Virus record (IMG/VR): IMGVR_UViG_3300025687_000442
Coordinates: 1-20,160 of that record
Direction: 5' to 3' (one strand)
From: a virus
DNA length: 20,160 nucleotides
Shown: positions 5,788 through 16,842 of the stretch, in pieces
How positions within the stretch are numbered: position 1 is the stretch's first letter
Layout: every line of letters starts with the position of its first letter
Position numbers and translations under genes: made by a program
The notes under the pieces: generated by a model
What the model was told of the DNA's origin: nothing
What the model saw: only the letters and a program-made list of their open reading frames with translations
The model's database searches: none

Positions 5788-5997
5788 CTAATAACCTCTT
5801 GTTGCTAATAACTTTTTCATTTTCTTTTTGTAATTAGCGATACCTTCTTTTTTCTTACGTCTTTTACGTTCACTAGGTTTTTCATATACAGATTTTGCTC
5901 TATAATCTTTAATAATACCTTCTTTTTGTACTTTCTTTTTTAGTACACGCATCGCTTGTTCTAAATTTCCATTTCTTATTTCAACTCTAATACCCAA
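5788..5997 (-). CDS. rpsU: Phage-encoded ribosomal protein bS21
   Basis: bS21 is a small basic protein of the 30S platform near the anti-Shine-Dalgarno region and helps initiation on mRNAs. The 69-residue product has the family layout: an N-terminal beta strand 'IRVEIRNGNLEQAMRVLKKK', then 'KEGIIKDYRAKSVYEKPSERKRRKK', then a basic helical tail. The length equals bacterial bS21 (about 70). The start is TTG at 5997-5995: the codon just before it in frame is a stop, so no upstream ATG is possible, and an AGGAGGT lies seven bases before the TTG. Viral bS21 genes are known from pelagiphages and other aquatic phages, where they are thought to replace the host protein in ribosomes. A UUCG-capped hairpin lies in the leader. 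Confidence 0.93.
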   Translation of the reverse strand: MGIRVEIRNGNLEQAMRVLKKKVQKEGIIKDYRAKSVYEKPSERKRRKKKEGIANYKKKMKKLLATRGY

Positions 5998-6073: not shown

Positions 6074-7285
6074 TTAGGAGTCATAGCCGTTTGAGTTATC
6101 CTCATCTTGCTCATCTTCCGACTCACTATCATTGTCATTCATTTGAGTGTTCAACTCTGCTTTTCTCTGATCTTCCATAATGTCTTCGACACTAGCGCCA
6201 GAGTCCACTTTCGTATATAACTCTACAAACGAATTTTTTGTATCATCATCAAATCTATTAGTACACATTTGGATTGCTTTCATCTTATTATCAAAGATAG
6301 CAAACGCTTGAGTAATATGAACTAATCTTCTTGTTGAGATAATCTCATCTACACCACCATCAAAGTAGGTTTTTCTAATAACATCTGCCCAAGTAGTTAA
6401 CTTGTCAACAAAGCCATCGTCTTTTTTACCTACAGCTTTAAGAGTGTTTTGTAATATCTTTTTTTCTGTTTTAGTAGAAGGATAAGTTTGCTCAAAAGTA
6501 ATTGGAAATCTTTCCAAAAAAGCTTCGTTCAATACATTCGTACCGATAAACTTACCATCTTCTGAACCTTGACCTTTAGTATTCGCAGTTGCGATTACGT
6601 TAAATCCTGGTTTTGGTTTTACAAACTTGTTAATCTTTTTAACAAAGACACCAGAACCTTCAAGGATTGGTTGTAAACACATAATCTTATTACTTGCTAA
6701 GTCAATCTCATCAAGTAAAAGAATAGCGCCTCTTTCCATAGCCTCAATAACTGGACCATTCTGCCATACAGTCTGACCGTCTTTAAGTCTATAACCACCT
6801 AACAAATCATCTTCATCTGTTTCAATAGTGATGTTAACTCTGATTAATTCTTTTTTCAACTCAGCACACGCCTGTGTCACTGACATTGTTTTACCATTAC
6901 CTGAAAGACCTGTAATAAATAATGGATAAAACTGACCAGACTTAATAATATTTTTAACATCTGGATAGTTTCCAAAACTTACGAAACTTGAATCTTTCTG
7001 TGGTACGATATTACCAGTTAAAGATGAAACAACATAAGCCGCCTCTGTTTTAGTATCAGCAACTGACGTTTCCATTAACTGTTCGTTCTCGGTAAGTTTA
7101 CCATCAAGTGGTAATTTGTAAGTACCTCTATCAACTTTGTACTTATCTGTTTTCAACCAAGAAGGATTTTTAATCTTCTTTTTTGATACTAGAGCGTTTA
7201 TCTCACCTCTAGTTAAAGTGTCTTTTTTATAGTGTTTAAATAACACTGACACTTGTTCTTTTTGACTTACATTTAAGTCTATCAT
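6074..7285 (-). CDS. MoxR/CobS-like AAA+ ATPase
   Basis: This 403-residue AAA+ ATPase belongs to the MoxR/CobS group, often annotated 'porphyrin biosynthetic protein CobS' in marine phages. The motifs are Walker A GLSGNGKT (126-133), 'LLGGYRLKDG' (161-170), Walker B AILLLDEID (187-195), sensor ATANT (232-236), arginine finger in 'FLERF' (257-260), and sensor 2 'ISTRR' (316-320). The first about 110 residues form an N-terminal domain, and the last about 30 are an acidic tail rich in Asp, Glu, Asn and Ser. MoxR ATPases typically work with a vWA-domain partner encoded next door, and the upstream gene is exactly that; cobalt chelation is unlikely. I chose ATG 7285 over 7306 because AAGGAG lies just before it. 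Both ATGs sit in a repeated AACACTATG, and the upstream ATG could give a seven-residue longer form. Confidence 0.9.
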   Translation of the reverse strand: MIDLNVSQKEQVSVLFKHYKKDTLTRGEINALVSKKKIKNPSWLKTDKYKVDRGTYKLPLDGKLTENEQLMETSVADTKTEAAYVVSSLTGNIVPQKDSSFVSFGNYPDVKNIIKSGQFYPLFITGLSGNGKTMSVTQACAELKKELIRVNITIETDEDDLLGGYRLKDGQTVWQNGPVIEAMERGAILLLDEIDLASNKIMCLQPILEGSGVFVKKINKFVKPKPGFNVIATANTKGQGSEDGKFIGTNVLNEAFLERFPITFEQTYPSTKTEKKILQNTLKAVGKKDDGFVDKLTTWADVIRKTYFDGGVDEIISTRRLVHITQAFAIFDNKMKAIQMCTNRFDDDTKNSFVELYTKVDSGASVEDIMEDQRKAELNTQMNDNDSESEDEQDEDNSNGYDS

Positions 7286-7321
7286 AGTGTTTACTCCTTT
7301 TTTCATAGTGTTTATATATTA

Positions 7322-7349
7322 ATAATATCAGGATTTGTATAAAAGTCAA
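7322..7349 (-). promoter_or_regulatory. Sigma70-type promoter of the MoxR-like ATPase gene
   Basis: On the minus strand TTGACT (7349-7344), a 16-base spacer ending in CCTGA, and a -10 TATTAT (7327-7322). The TGA before the -10 makes it an extended -10. The predicted start near 7315 leaves a leader of about 30 bases with a ribosome binding site. It overlaps the 42-bp element shared with the upstream vWA gene. Confidence 0.65.
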
Positions 7350-7382
7350 CCCATAAAATTGGATTGATTTTACTAGTGTTTT
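7341..7382 (-). repeat. 42-bp control element, copy 2 (before the MoxR-like gene)
   Basis: This copy matches 9669-9710 at 36 of 42 positions without gaps. On the plus strand it reads AAAAGTCAACCC, ten variable bases, ATTGATTTTACTAGT, then RTTTT. The first block contains the -35 (TTGACT on the minus strand) and the second lies just upstream of it, where an operator or an activator site would be. Both copies sit at the same place relative to their promoter. Confidence 0.75.
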
Positions 7383-7385
7383 TCA

Positions 7386-9641
7386 CTATGCAACCTCCTG
7401 AATAAATTGATTTAACAATGTTCTACTAACGATTCGCCCTTTCATTGATTTTTTAAATACTTTAGCGATACCACCAGCTTTCATATTATCTTTAATACCT
7501 GATAAATCAGCATTCTCAACATTTAACTTTTTACCATTTAATAAGAAATACTTGTCATAACCCATTGTGTCAACAGAAGCAAATCTTTCCTTATTTAAAT
7601 TTGATCTAATTTTTTCGGTTTGTTTATCTCTTTCCATCCAATTTTTATAATTTCTAGTGTATCTGTCCACTTCCCAACTTCTAACTTTTCTAGTCACATA
7701 AAAACCAATCGTAGATATATTATGTCTTTTTCTAATAATATCTAAAAGTAATCCTGTATAAATGTCACTTGAATAATAATCCATATCATTATTAGGTAAT
7801 GTATATTGTTTTTTACCAACTTTAATAACTGGTTTACCACTATTCATTGGTGATTCATTTCCGTCATCACCAACTGTACAACTAAAAGACCAATTTGCAC
7901 CACCATCTGTTAAAGTGATCAATGACATTTTTTCAATTTTATTTTTGTTTTTAAATATTGGTATCATTTTTTCAAACGCAACTAATGCTTGATTTAATGG
8001 AGTAGAACCTAGGAAATAATCTCTAGGCATATGAAATATATCACCCATATATGGTTTTACATCTGAATAACTTCTTATAGAATATCTATCATCATAAGCC
8101 AATGACATATGCCACAACCACATTAATGACTCATCTAATTCTGTTTTTTTAAGTTTATTGTTAGCAACGCAAACTAAATTAACTTGTTCAAACATTACAT
8201 CACCAAATTTATAATCAAAAACTTTTTTTCCAGATTTTCTTTCACCTGATATATCTGTGTCTTCACCATACTCACTTGTAAAAAGATAAACTTCATATGG
8301 GATATTTACTTTTTGACAAAACCAAACTAAATTCATTAATTGCTCAACTGTTTGTTTTATTTGAGCACTCATTGAACCTGACCAATCTAACAACATCATC
8401 ATACCGTGATTTTTAGCGTCTGGTAAAACAGTTAATCTTTTGAATATATCATCTGAATATTTGTAAGATGGTAATTTAAGAGGGTCAATAACACCAGTTT
8501 TATCTGTTGATGTTCTTTTGTAAGCAGTTGCTGCTTTTTTCATTTCAAATTCTTTGACAAGATAATTTACTGTCTTACTATTATCTTTTTTAAATTTTTT
8601 ATAAGCGTTCTTTAACCAATTATAATATTCACCATATGACTTATATTTTTTAATTTCACTAAACGCATATGATTTCATATCTTTTAAAAATTGTTTATTT
8701 GTAATTATCATATTGTTTAATTTAACATTTGGTAAACTAAAATAAGAGTAGCTTCTTTTTGAATCGTAAAGATTTGATTTTTTATCTTCTAAAGACTCAT
8801 TTGTAATAGAAACTAAATTACCTGGTTTTACACCAGAACCTCCACCTATTTGAGCTTCATTATTTACACTTTTTTGAGAGTTGCTGTTTTTTTTATCCTC
8901 ACCATTATCTTCTGATTCTTTATTAGAATCATTTTGTGAATTATCATCTTTACTTTTATCTTTTGAAATTTTTATATTCGTATCATCATCTGTTTTTTCA
9001 CCATCATTATTTGAAAGATTATAATTTTTAAAAAAAGAGTGTAAATCAAAATCAGGTAATTTTTTCATTTGTTCAATTTGTTTTTTCTGCCAATCTAATA
9101 ATTCTTTAGCAAGATTGACAACATCATCAAACGATTTTAATGCGTCAACCTTGTCTAACCATTTATTATCAACAGAGGAAAACTTAATTGGTAATCTTTT
9201 TGAAGACTTATAAAATAAATTAATTTTATCAATTAACATAAATTCTTTATTAATATCTTTATCTTTAATACCAAAGAAATTTTGTTTATCTAATAAATCA
9301 AAACCATTAATATAGTTTTTAACTACACCAGGATATTGTTTTTGTATAAGTTTATCAATTCTACAATCTTCTAATACATTTACGTATGATCTTAACTCAT
9401 TATTATTCATTATAGATTTCCAACCATTTTCAGGCGTAAATAAAGCGTGAGCACATTCGTGTGCAATTAACATATCATATACATCACCTTTAGGTTGTTT
9501 AAATACAGGTAATGTTAAAATTCTATTTTTTGTATCAAATGAGGCGGTTTTAACTTTATTATGTTGTACTGAAATATTCTCGGTTGCGATCAACTTTGCG
9601 AGATTTGATTTTGTATCTAAGTTAATTGTTTGTGTATCCAT
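7386..9641 (-). CDS. Zincin-like HExxH protein with C-terminal von Willebrand A domain
   Basis: This 751-residue protein has two recognisable parts. The N-terminal part carries a zinc metalloprotease-like HECAH (61-65) followed by 'YVNVLEDCRIDKLI' (87-100), where E91 or D92 could be the third ligand. This resembles the N-terminal domain of bacterial vWA proteins of the DUF2201/CobT type. A low-complexity Asp/Lys/Asn/Ser linker spans about 207-265. The C-terminal part is a vWA domain with MIDAS DWSGS (419-423), a later 'GSTPLNQAL' threonine and a 'TLTDGGAN' aspartate, completing DxSxS-T-D. The next gene downstream is a MoxR-like ATPase, so the two very probably form a chaperone- or protease-like pair. 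Phage annotations often call such proteins peptidase or CobT. The -10 lies eight bases before the ATG with no Shine-Dalgarno, so a leaderless message is predicted. Confidence 0.85.
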   Translation of the reverse strand: MDTQTINLDTKSNLAKLIATENISVQHNKVKTASFDTKNRILTLPVFKQPKGDVYDMLIAHECAHALFTPENGWKSIMNNNELRSYVNVLEDCRIDKLIQKQYPGVVKNYINGFDLLDKQNFFGIKDKDINKEFMLIDKINLFYKSSKRLPIKFSSVDNKWLDKVDALKSFDDVVNLAKELLDWQKKQIEQMKKLPDFDLHSFFKNYNLSNNDGEKTDDDTNIKISKDKSKDDNSQNDSNKESEDNGEDKKNSNSQKSVNNEAQIGGGSGVKPGNLVSITNESLEDKKSNLYDSKRSYSYFSLPNVKLNNMIITNKQFLKDMKSYAFSEIKKYKSYGEYYNWLKNAYKKFKKDNSKTVNYLVKEFEMKKAATAYKRTSTDKTGVIDPLKLPSYKYSDDIFKRLTVLPDAKNHGMMMLLDWSGSMSAQIKQTVEQLMNLVWFCQKVNIPYEVYLFTSEYGEDTDISGERKSGKKVFDYKFGDVMFEQVNLVCVANNKLKKTELDESLMWLWHMSLAYDDRYSIRSYSDVKPYMGDIFHMPRDYFLGSTPLNQALVAFEKMIPIFKNKNKIEKMSLITLTDGGANWSFSCTVGDDGNESPMNSGKPVIKVGKKQYTLPNNDMDYYSSDIYTGLLLDIIRKRHNISTIGFYVTRKVRSWEVDRYTRNYKNWMERDKQTEKIRSNLNKERFASVDTMGYDKYFLLNGKKLNVENADLSGIKDNMKAGGIAKVFKKSMKGRIVSRTLLNQFIQEVA

Positions 9642-9648
9642 ACTAGCT

Positions 9649-9677
9649 AATCTATCAGGTTGCTTTTAAAAAGTCAA
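9649..9677 (-). promoter_or_regulatory. Sigma70-type promoter giving a predicted leaderless mRNA
   Basis: On the minus strand TTGACT (9677-9672), a 17-base spacer ending in CCTGA, and a -10 TAGATT (9654-9649) preceded by TGA. Standard spacing puts the start at about 9642, one base before the ATG at 9641. No Shine-Dalgarno can fit. The -35 is inside the 42-bp repeated element. Confidence 0.65.
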
Positions 9678-9710
9678 CCCCAAAAAAAGCATTGATTTTA
9701 CTAGTATTTT
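9669..9710 (-). repeat. 42-bp control element, copy 1 (before the vWA gene)
   Basis: This is the partner of the copy at 7341-7382: 36 of 42 identical bases, same internal spacing of ten between the two conserved blocks. It lies directly upstream of and over the -35 of the vWA gene promoter. The ATTGATTTTACTAGT block is the most conserved and is not explained by the promoter itself. Confidence 0.75.
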
Positions 9711-9724
9711 AAAGGTAAGATGTT

Positions 9725-11026
9725 CTACTTTTGTTCTAAATTATAAGGTTTTATGACTTTTTTGTATATATTTGACGCTAAATTCTTCATCATTAGGGGT
9801 GCAACCATACGACCGATTCGTTCAGCTTGTTTATCAAAGCTACCCTCTAGTTTATAATCATCTGGTAATCCCATAATTCTCTTTAATTCTGGTATAGTAA
9901 ATTTACGATTTTTACTATAATGAAAGACACCAGATACACTCATTTGTTGTCCTCTTTGTGTAAGTGTTGGACTAGGAAGTTGAGCCGCTGGTCTTATCAT
10001 ATTAAACATAGATTTTTTATAATTAATATCTACAAAGTAATATTCTCTATCAGTATCCCATTCATAATGTTTTACATCTGTTTTCATTAATTGGTTTATT
10101 GTAGTTGTACTATTTGATACTACTGGTTTAGCATTCTTTTCTTTAAAACCCATTTCTTTATATTCTGGCCATTTATCTTTTGGTATAATTCTTATTTCGT
10201 TTTCACTAGGTTTAACGTGTCTTGTAGGATTAAGTGGTAATATCTCTACCCATTTCTTTTGAAAGCCACCCTGTACATAGTCAAATAATTCTTTTTCTTG
10301 TTCTACGTCATTTTGTACATCTTCGATTGCTTCTTTTAATGATACTTGTTGTTTGTATGGTTCTGGATATACTTCATTTTCCATTGTCATAAAATTTAAT
10401 CCTACCTTATCCATAACATCATTTCTTACAGCAACAAAGAAACATCTTTGTCTTGCTTGTGGTGTTCCATAATCAGCGGCATTCAACACTTTACCGACTG
10501 CTTCATATCCCAATTTACCAAACTCATTGACTATTCTATTAAAGTATTCTTTTGCTTCACCCATTGTAATACCAGCAACGTTTTCACCGATTACTACTTT
10601 AGGCATTATCTCACCTGTGATTCGTGTAAATTCAAAAAATAAGTCTTCTATATTTTCTACTTTTTTACCATCTGAATATATCTTTTCTTGGTCCCAACCC
10701 TTTTCTCTTTTACCAGCGACACTAAACGCTGAACACGGTGGCGAACCGTCTAATATATCTAACTCACCTTTTTGAATACCAGCGGCTTTTAAAAAGTCTT
10801 CACCTTTAAGTTGTTTAATATCTTGTGGTAAAACTGGAGTATTTGGATAGTTTGATTTGTATGTTTCAACAGCGGCTTCTACAAACTCATTTACACATAA
10901 TATCTTTCCACCCGCTAGTCTATAACCCGTAGAAGAACCACCACCTCCAGCGAAAGTAGAGATCACAGTAAAGAGTTCTTTGTTTGAGTTATCTATTACA
11001 TCTTTTAGATAATATGGTTTGTACAT
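9725..11026 (-). CDS. DNA (cytosine-5) methyltransferase
   Basis: This 433-residue enzyme has the ordered motifs of C5 methyltransferases. Motif I for SAM binding is FAGGGGSSTGYR (25-36). Motif IV with the catalytic Cys is GSPPCSAFS, C98. Motif VI is ENV (149-151 region, in GENVAG), and motif VIII is QARQR (190-194). Motif X is near the C-terminus in 'ERIGRMVAPLMMKNLASNIY'. The target-recognition region lies at about residues 230-370. The family's usual Cys-Gln pair is Cys-Ser here. No restriction enzyme gene lies nearby, so it is a solitary methyltransferase, probably protecting phage DNA or altering expression; the recognition site cannot be read from sequence. The first Met is forced by length, has no Shine-Dalgarno, and lies seven bases from the -10, so the message is predicted to be leaderless. 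Confidence 0.94.
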   Translation of the reverse strand: MYKPYYLKDVIDNSNKELFTVISTFAGGGGSSTGYRLAGGKILCVNEFVEAAVETYKSNYPNTPVLPQDIKQLKGEDFLKAAGIQKGELDILDGSPPCSAFSVAGKREKGWDQEKIYSDGKKVENIEDLFFEFTRITGEIMPKVVIGENVAGITMGEAKEYFNRIVNEFGKLGYEAVGKVLNAADYGTPQARQRCFFVAVRNDVMDKVGLNFMTMENEVYPEPYKQQVSLKEAIEDVQNDVEQEKELFDYVQGGFQKKWVEILPLNPTRHVKPSENEIRIIPKDKWPEYKEMGFKEKNAKPVVSNSTTTINQLMKTDVKHYEWDTDREYYFVDINYKKSMFNMIRPAAQLPSPTLTQRGQQMSVSGVFHYSKNRKFTIPELKRIMGLPDDYKLEGSFDKQAERIGRMVAPLMMKNLASNIYKKVIKPYNLEQK

Positions 11027-12337: not shown

Positions 12338-12421
12338 TTATTCCTTTGCCATTGATATACCAACTCTAGGTGTAAGTGGTACTACTTCGTGTTTTATTCC
12401 TTTGGTGTATATAACTTTCAT
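12338..12421 (-). CDS. 27-codon ORF between two oxygenase genes
   Basis: The ORF starts at an ATG overlapping the upstream stop (ATGA at 12421-12418) and ends TAA two bases before the next ATG. It fits the gap exactly, as real phage genes do. The product is MKVIYTKGIKHEVVPLTPRV plus GISMAKE. The pattern 'KHEVVPLTPRVGISMA' resembles the last part of a 2OG-Fe(II) oxygenase (distal His, then Arg, then closing strand), so it may be a remnant of a third oxygenase copy. The alternative is a genuine micro-protein. No Shine-Dalgarno is evident, so coupling would be needed. Confidence 0.4.
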   Translation of the reverse strand: MKVIYTKGIKHEVVPLTPRVGISMAKE

Positions 12422-12981
12422 ATTGATACTTTATATTTTATATTATTTTTTGCACTTACCAAATTAATGTTTAATATTATTCTTCTATCATATTTTATAG
12501 GTTTACTGCTGGAGTGTTTTATGTTTCCTTCAAATAAAATTGCTGAATTTTCTTCAGGTGTATTTTGATTTATTATATTATTTTGATTGTCATAAAAATA
12601 TGTATCACCATCACTCTCATTTAAATAATATAATATAACTTTATGTTGTTCATAAAAATCAATATGAGGATTGTGTATAATTTTTTCTGCGTTATTTGTA
12701 CTCATTCCCCACCTAAGTCTTAATATTTCATAATCATTTAAATGAAACTGGTCTTTCATAATGTTTGCTATCATCATTGTATTTTCATTAAAAAATGAAT
12801 TTGACTTTTTTTCTTTCATAGTTGTATGATAAAAAGAATATTTTTTAGTTTTATTCGTATCTGTAGTATTATCAAATGCAGAATCAGGTATATAAAACCA
12901 AGGAAACATATCTGAACACACGTGTTCTTTAATATCATTAAATAATTTTGTATCTAAAATATTATTAATTTTTTTAAACAT
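12418..12981 (-). CDS. 2OG-Fe(II) oxygenase family protein
   Basis: The 187-residue product carries H106-x-D108 (NPHIDFYEQHKVILYYLN), the distal H156 (GNIKHSSSKP) and R166/R167 before the last strand 'IILNINL'. Together these form a full Fe(II)/2OG site. The segment 'DGDTYFYD' followed by 'PEENSAILFEG' is typical of phage oxygenases with a short insert. It overlaps the gp46 stop by eight bases, so it is translated from the same message as the recombination nuclease. It shares 'SDMFPWFYIPDSA' with 'SNMFPWYFMNHVA' of the neighbouring oxygenase, indicating common origin. The substrate is unknown. Confidence 0.82.
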   Translation of the reverse strand: MFKKINNILDTKLFNDIKEHVCSDMFPWFYIPDSAFDNTTDTNKTKKYSFYHTTMKEKKSNSFFNENTMMIANIMKDQFHLNDYEILRLRWGMSTNNAEKIIHNPHIDFYEQHKVILYYLNESDGDTYFYDNQNNIINQNTPEENSAILFEGNIKHSSSKPIKYDRRIILNINLVSAKNNIKYKVSI

Positions 12982-15752: not shown

Positions 15753-16301
15753 CTAGTTAAATAAATTTGATTTTTTTATAACTTTCTTTTTGTTTTTATT
15801 CTTTTTCTTAGATTCTTCTTTTATTATTTTGTCACTAAATTTTGTGTTTTTTTGTAAAAATTCTGTAAATTGATTTTTATAATCATTATCATCACCTGGT
15901 AATAATGTCATATCATCATAATTTGCGTGTGCAATCATTTTTTGTTTTACTTCTACTTGTTTTTTTTCTTTTTGTATTCTTCTAACAAAAGCAAAATAAA
16001 TGATTTGTGTAAAATAAGCAAAAGGATTATTTGATTTAGCAGGATTAAAATTGTCCAAATATTGTAAACAGTTTTCTATACCATCACTAATCATATCATC
16101 TCTAAATGTATAATTAATAAAGTTTGGTCTATATGATAAGTGATTAGCAATCTTTAAAAAACAACTACCTAAAAAATTATTTACAGGAGGTTTTTCTTTA
16201 TTTTCTTTTTTTGCTTTATTACAGAGTTTTTTATATTCTTTCATAGCTTCTAAAAACTCTTTATTGTTTATATAGTGTTCCTTTGTTTGTCTTTTAGGCA
16301 T
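15753..16301 (-). CDS. 55: Late-transcription sigma factor gp55
   Basis: gp55 is the highly diverged sigma subunit that directs RNA polymerase to TATAAATA late promoters, assisted by gp33 and the gp45 clamp. The 182-residue protein (T4: 185) has the region-2-like core 'FRDDMISDGIENCLQYLDNFNPAKSNNPFAYFTQIIYFAFVRRIQKEKK' (about residues 66-114). That block is the most conserved in gp55. The C-terminus is strongly basic (KKKNKNKKKVIKK) and ends 'NLFN', fitting the short clamp-binding tail of gp55 proteins. No gp33 gene was seen in the window. It overlaps the upstream oxygenase by eight bases. Two perfect late boxes in the window agree with its activity. Confidence 0.95.
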   Translation of the reverse strand: MPKRQTKEHYINNKEFLEAMKEYKKLCNKAKKENKEKPPVNNFLGSCFLKIANHLSYRPNFINYTFRDDMISDGIENCLQYLDNFNPAKSNNPFAYFTQIIYFAFVRRIQKEKKQVEVKQKMIAHANYDDMTLLPGDDNDYKNQFTEFLQKNTKFSDKIIKEESKKKNKNKKKVIKKSNLFN

Positions 16302-16842
16302 ATTTTTTTATTTCCTCATTTTTAACATCTGTAAAACTAGAATTAAAAGAAATTATAGTTTTTCTTTTTGTTGTTTTGTTTTCTGCTGATCTATGTAATA
16401 AAAACCCAGGAAAAGTTAATACATCACCCTCATTAACTTTTATGTTTGAAATTATTTTTTTTGATATTGGGTCTAAAATTTGAGTTTCAGTATTATTAGG
16501 TAATTCTAAATAAACCACATTGGTATAATTAGTTGAAATGTGTGTGTGCCAAGGGTGTTCATCATTTGTATAATATTGTTGAAACCATATATTGTGGACA
16601 ACCCCATTTTTACATAAATGAAAATTCGCTAGTTCTTCCATATATTCTTTAACAACATCATCATAAAAATATCTAGCATATTTTCTTTCAGTATCTTTTG
16701 CTAATTCCCAATCGGTATGACTAATTTTTGCATAACTTGTTTTAGGTATCTCATTAATAAGTTGTAATAGATTTTTAATTTGTTCTTCATTACAAAGTTT
16801 TTTTTGAAATAAAGGTGCATTAAATTTGTAAATATTAATCAT
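16294..16842 (-). CDS. Putative 2OG-Fe(II) oxygenase with HxH metal motif
   Basis: The 182-residue protein has the phage oxygenase pattern 'HPWHTHISTNYTNVVYLELP' followed by 'VNEGDVLTFPGFLLHRSAENKTTKR', with H99, H101, H150 and R160. The proximal motif reads H-T-H where most family members have H-x-D, resembling the 2OG-FeII_Oxy_5 (PF13759) type. The metal set-up may therefore differ from the other four oxygenases here. The ATG has no Shine-Dalgarno and lies next to a -10 (16853-16848), so a leaderless message is predicted. It heads the operon with gp55, gp47 and gp46, so its expression is tied to recombination and late transcription genes. The substrate is unknown. Confidence 0.72.
   Translation of the reverse strand: MINIYKFNAPLFQKKLCNEEQIKNLLQLINEIPKTSYAKISHTDWELAKDTERKYARYFYDDVVKEYMEELANFHLCKNGVVHNIWFQQYYTNDEHPWHTHISTNYTNVVYLELPNNTETQILDPISKKIISNIKVNEGDVLTFPGFLLHRSAENKTTKRKTIISFNSSFTDVKNEEIKKYA

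Follow-up and report, generated by a model that had tools for sequence, protein, structure and literature searches.

We consider the chances to be about even that two adjoining genes of a marine T4-like phage encode an ATP-driven metalloprotease or remodelling machine that acts early in infection, in which an AAA+ ring would work with a CobT-like von Willebrand factor A (vWA) partner bearing a catalytically plausible zinc-peptidase domain. The genes lie in the IMG/VR record IMGVR_UViG_3300025687_000442, a phage genome fragment whose entire stored length of 20,160 bases is hereafter called the window, and they code for a 751-aa protein with a predicted zincin-like N-terminal domain and a C-terminal vWA domain and for a 410-aa MoxR-class ATPase that is annotated as CobS in its relatives (Table 1). 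The pair is real, conserved and already catalogued in phages. A narrower proposal, which we offer only tentatively, is that the core 'cobS' gene of cyanophages and pelagiphages, instead of serving B12 synthesis, encodes the motor of an early ATP-driven metalloprotease, which would cleave or take apart one particular host protein; bacterial CobT would then be a related protein that has lost the protease site.

A sequence-only reading of the window had noted an N-terminal HECAH and a conserved ED in the larger protein. Both were located, with E91-D92 lying 25 residues past H65, and a check of homologues for missing His or Glu residues found none within the family. The residues H61, E62, H65, E91, D92 and R94, together with D419, S421, S423, T547 and D579 of the vWA domain, are identical in 43/43 aligned homologues, whose identity falls to about 29%. 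Furthermore, the full HExxH...ED-x-R-I motif is intact at 72/72 viral loci and at 10/10 loci from metagenome-assembled or single amplified genomes that cover the motif region; the genome-contig scan yielded 12 loci, which are taken to be phage contigs. These counts come only from scans whose search patterns excluded HExxH, and a second viral scan that used HExxH as a pattern was left out. Because the loci were fetched without motif selection, the motif is not a chance occurrence.

PHROGs labels the 751-aa protein a 'peptidase', and Pfam detected neither a zincin nor a vWA domain in it. In the AlphaFold2 (AF2) model (mean predicted local distance difference test, pLDDT, 73; predicted template modelling score 0.67), the N-terminal domain has beta strands at residues 24-28, 34-36 and 41-45, HECAH lies in helix 53-68 and E91 in helix 81-102, a secondary structure that is consistent with the predicted zincin fold. 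PDB searches of the model with Foldseek and VIA listed only vWA matches and are hence uninformative on the zincin part. An hhalign comparison with the N-domain of phrog_1576 (96.4%, E 1e-9) places HExxH and ED in register. Naming a zincin family was rejected, since the hhalign matches to M48, M78 and SprT (51-64%) and to DUF2201 (14%) are too weak; a strictly invariant C-terminus was also ruled out, as the terminal VA is missing from 27/159 homologues.

The linker that follows is 32% D/E and ranges from 68 to 109 residues in length across homologues. Beyond it, the vWA domain has the metal-ion-dependent adhesion site (MIDAS) motif D419-W-S421-G-S423 plus T547 and D579, and its closest solved folds by VIA-align are the MIDAS domain of midasin (Z 16.1, root mean square deviation (rmsd) 3.5, 224 residues aligned) and NorD (Z 15.8, rmsd 6.9, 247 aligned). 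Midasin and NorD are both partners of AAA+ proteins, and the fold and complete MIDAS place the 751-aa protein in the same class. In the ATPase, the Walker A (GLSGNGKT, 133-140) and Walker B (LLLDE, 196-200) motifs, sensor-1 N242, the candidate arginine finger R266 and sensor-2 R326/R327 are invariant in 33 homologues, and the structure model (pLDDT 73.6) is nearest to CbbQ2 (Z 24.3) and NorQ (Z 23.2), the best match outside those families reaching 16.0. The motifs and fold thus assign it to the CbbQ/NorQ/CobS group of MoxR-class AAA+ proteins. The earlier descriptions of a C-terminal vWA domain with an intact MIDAS and of an adjoining MoxR-class ATPase with all of its motifs are therefore borne out.

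The two genes travel together. In 154/154 loci where both were found, the ATPase gene is the downstream one and shares the strand of its partner, and most of the 21 loci lacking it have little or no downstream sequence. The larger protein occurs in 463 phage records, and the cyanophage record counts, which were not matched record by record, agree exactly between the proteins (Synechococcus 365, Cyanophage 61, Prochlorococcus 24); for comparison, gp46 occurs in 376 Synechococcus-phage records. The window is syntenic with pelagiphages HTVC008M and Mosig in the order uvsW, gp55, gp47, gp46, variable genes, 751-aa gene, ATPase gene, S21, Hsp20, gp45, gp44, gp62 and regA, so that the pair sits among replication genes with gp46 on one side and gp45 on the other. 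The nearest isolate, Mosig EXVC030M (47% identity for the 751-aa protein and 70% for the ATPase), infects Pelagibacter HTCC1062, and a SAR11 host is therefore likely, though not proven, for the window phage. Absence also affects both genes: the complete genome of Methylophilales phage Melnitz-3, whose gp46 is 49% identical to that of the window, has neither, and it retains deformylase, Hsp20, gp45 and gp44 around the site as well as gp23. A lack of cobS has also been reported for four cyanophages of cluster C (PMC10665884).

Promoter-like sites precede each gene. Two copies of a 42-nt repeat, 86% identical and containing TTGACT, lie upstream, and close relatives keep TTGACT-spacer-TATTAT/TAGATT before both genes. 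In cyanophage-like loci, the upstream form is TTTACA-N17-TATAAT, which we take to resemble the T4 early promoter. Sites scoring at least 10/12 occur upstream of 36% of homologues of the 751-aa gene and 51% of those of the ATPase gene, compared with 3-4% in random windows and in shuffles that preserved base composition only; the values for other genes are 43% (gp45), 7% (gp46) and 2% (gp44). These sigma-70-like sites suggest that the pair is expressed early or in the middle of infection rather than late. In the repeat copy before the ATPase gene, a terminator-like hairpin (7367-7346) was scored as well, so this copy might combine termination with a new promoter.

The timing bears on the target. 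Iyer et al. (2021; PMC7824862), who described this architecture in jumbo phages, proposed a role in virion assembly and processing, and they cite an archaeal virus precedent without a peptidase. Although this role is published, we consider it improbable for the present pair, given the early-type promoters before both genes, the location among replication genes and the case of Melnitz, which has gp23 and the flanking genes yet not the pair. No virion proteome covering the pair was found; the phage in the S-CREM2 virion study is one from which cobS is reportedly absent (PMC10665884). The sequence-only reading had suggested that host or virion proteins are acted on by a metalloprotease or remodelling machine driven by ATP, an idea already in print for jumbo phages. 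Of that reading, the MoxR/vWA pair with an intact, invariant zincin-type motif on the vWA partner is supported; action on virion proteins is less likely because early-type promoters precede each gene.

The gene names point to another role. According to Liu et al. (2021; PMC8651126), the cyanophage peptidase is in truth a CobT under a wrong annotation, which would take over the CobN of the host; in that account, as in the general annotation of auxiliary metabolic genes, the pair would be a viral cobaltochelatase helper that raises B12. Kinship is indeed present over the shared domains: the ATPase profile matches solved CobS in the PDB at 1.1e-24, ranking behind midasin, and the vWA region matches bacterial CobT by hhalign (83%, E 8.5e-6). 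A direct comparison of the phage and CobT N-domains is not significant (2.2%), and this link rests on a bridge through phrog_1576, whose own N-domain matches that of CobT at 77.3% (E 2e-5). A Klebsiella phage member of phrog_1576 matches Pfam CobT at 1e-22, yet carries HEVGH, and HExxH is kept in the phage 'CobT' proteins of Vibrio ICP2, Rhizobium B1VFA, Klebsiella ST13 and Gordonia Shelley. HExxH is absent from 30/30 bacterial CobT proteins. These comparisons are most simply read as a single superfamily, with the protease-type site present in most of the phage members examined and missing in genuine CobT; the homology proposed by Liu et al. is supported, and their dismissal of the peptidase site is not.

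Membership of the superfamily does not extend to the enzymes themselves. The CobS equivalog TIGR01650 gives 76.9 bits against a cut-off of 558.55, and the CobT equivalog TIGR01651 gives 12.1 bits against 759.05. No CobN gene was found in three phage genomes that bear the pair (HTVC008M, Mosig and S-TIM4), and SAR11, the host of the nearest isolate, is reported neither to make nor to need B12 (PMC8552899). CobN-family genes are present in a Prochlorococcus genome, which favours a helper of host CobN there, and the SAR11 argument therefore cannot be extended to cyanobacteria. We assume that nrdA/nrdB of S-SSM5 encode a B12-independent class I reductase. This phage carries cobS together with nrdA/nrdB (PMC9723779), a combination that also argues against a B12 role. 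Because of the missing HExxH in all 30 CobT proteins, the reported lack of B12 synthesis in SAR11 and the absence of CobN from the three phages, the customary assignment of cyanophage 'cobS' to B12 is weak, and we regard a cobaltochelatase helper as very unlikely.

How an early metalloprotease or remodelling machine might work can be outlined from NorQ/NorD. Cryo-EM work on NorQD (PMC13036017) led to a model in which twisting of the vWA domain by the ring, relative to the N-domain, puts the linker under stretch. By analogy, the MoxR-type ring would form a complex with the 751-aa protein and hold its vWA domain at the pore, and ATP hydrolysis would rotate this domain relative to the N-terminal one, or pull on it, by way of the stretched acidic linker. 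A target protein would be gripped at the MIDAS site, and the zincin domain, presumably with bound zinc, would cut what is exposed. With early transcription from the sigma-70-like promoters, the target would most likely be a protein of the host or an early one of the phage itself.

Several observations weigh against this proposal. About half or more of the homologues fall short of the 10/12 promoter score, and the similarity of the N-domain to known zincin families is weak and lies chiefly in the HExxH helix (M78 64%, M48 62%). Moreover, Stenotrophomonas phage BUCTxx99 (L212:1631-3616) has naturally lost the catalytic site, with DREVS in place of HExxH, and keeps the ED motif, the vWA domain and the ATPase gene; the superfamily can therefore function without catalysis. 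Together with the absence of HExxH from genuine CobT, this case favours a NorQD-like remodelling or metal-insertion chaperone, in which the HExxH domain binds metal or target and does not cut. The nearest characterised relatives, NorQD, CbbQO and CobST, are remodellers or metal inserters, not proteases (PMC13036017), and at least three 2OG-Fe(II) oxygenases (Pfam-supported or near-threshold) in the window are possible metal-protein clients. However, the catalytic-type Glu62 never varies within the family, which is hard to explain without catalysis, and we consider a non-cutting chaperone to be unlikely.

Table 1. Features of the gene pair and its surroundings; positions refer to the window.
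Feature	Position	Strand	Basis or remark
751-aa CobT-superfamily protein: zincin-like N-domain, acidic linker, helical region, vWA, conserved C-terminus	7386..9641	-	phrog_459 'peptidase' 1.2e-189; AF2 model
Predicted zincin-like domain, about residues 11-197	9051..9611	-	model secondary structure; hhalign to phrog_1576 N-domain
HECAH, residues 61-65	9447..9461	-	H61, E62, H65 identical 43/43
E91-D92, candidate third metal ligand and neighbour	9366..9371	-	identical 43/43
Acidic disordered linker, about residues 195-277	8811..9059	-	pLDDT <50 at 195-273
vWA domain, residues 410-751, MIDAS D419, S421, S423, T547, D579	7389..8414	-	VIA-align; five residues 43/43
410-aa MoxR-class AAA+ ATPase (CobS in relatives' annotation)	6074..7306	-	AAA_5 3.7e-19; phrog_249 1.3e-122
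Promoter-like TTGACT-N17-TAGATT, before 751-aa gene	9649..9677	-	promoter-like sites enriched upstream across homologues
Promoter-like TTGACT-N16-TATTAT, extended TG, before ATPase gene	7322..7349	-	conserved in close relatives
42-nt repeat copy before 751-aa gene	9669..9710	-	family D1, conserved in close relatives
42-nt repeat copy before ATPase gene	7341..7382	-	family D1
C-5 cytosine DNA methyltransferase	9725-11026		directly upstream of pair; PF00145, 2.8e-55
2OG-Fe(II) oxygenase-like genes	1776-2351, 12418-12981, 16294-16842		Pfam; 12418-12981 under cut-off
Ribosomal protein S21, phage-encoded	5788-5997		adjoins ATPase gene; phrog_21469, 3.9e-13

Among the neighbouring genes, the cytosine methyltransferase was detected in 20/175 related loci, and an S21 gene near the ATPase gene is likewise present in HTVC008M and Mosig. 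The oxygenases, at least three in number, are encoded within a single 20-kb fragment. PADLOC gave the pair no defence-system assignment (best 0.0059).

The question matters because cobS is among the most widespread 'auxiliary metabolic genes' of cyanophages, which ecological surveys count towards B12 synthesis and which also serves as a marker of communities (PMC9983427, PMC10452541). Should the pair turn out to remodel or cut proteins, these B12 readings would be mistaken, and marine viruses that rank among the most abundant would have a core function still to be found. The advance made here is a sharper choice among the protease, chaperone, virion-processing and B12 readings, and the question is directly testable through the invariant Glu62, Walker and MIDAS residues and through relatives without the pair or without the motif.

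Among known systems, the cobaltochelatase subunits CobS and CobT share with the phage pair a related AAA+ partner and a collinear order of N-domain, acidic linker, helical region and vWA domain; they differ in the HExxH and CobN contrasts given above. NorQ/NorD and CbbQ/CbbO provide the nearest AAA+ folds and a close vWA fold, whereas their clients are nitric oxide reductase and Rubisco, and a zincin motif is not reported for NorD in the available part of the NorQD article. Bacterial zincin-vWA proteins of DUF2201 (PF13203) combine HExxH and vWA with a Walker-A protein nearby at three loci, but the motif after HExxH differs and the profile match is the weak one noted above. DUF2201-vWA proteins adjoining Walker-A proteins at L234, L235, L236 and L238 are also without HExxH, which suggests that pairs of this kind have lost the site more than once.

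The closest counterparts are in phages. The core 'cobS' (phrog_249) and 'peptidase' (phrog_459) of cyanophages are full-length homologues in the same order between gp46 and gp45, and they are usually taken for an auxiliary metabolic gene of B12 synthesis and a peptidase with no connection to it; Liu et al. recognised the pair and held the peptidase label to be mistaken. The jumbo-phage pair of Iyer et al., described for group 2.2 in the available part of their article, likewise places a MoxR gene next to a vWA gene with an N-terminal metallopeptidase domain, an agreement in architecture. With these two published proposals, the earlier statement that the unit has no known role in phages does not hold. 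The virion-assembly proposal belongs to Iyer et al., and, as far as that part of their article extends, the contrast between CobT and the HExxH-bearing phage proteins, the early-type promoters at both genes and the paired absence in Melnitz with its flanking genes kept are found only in the present analysis.

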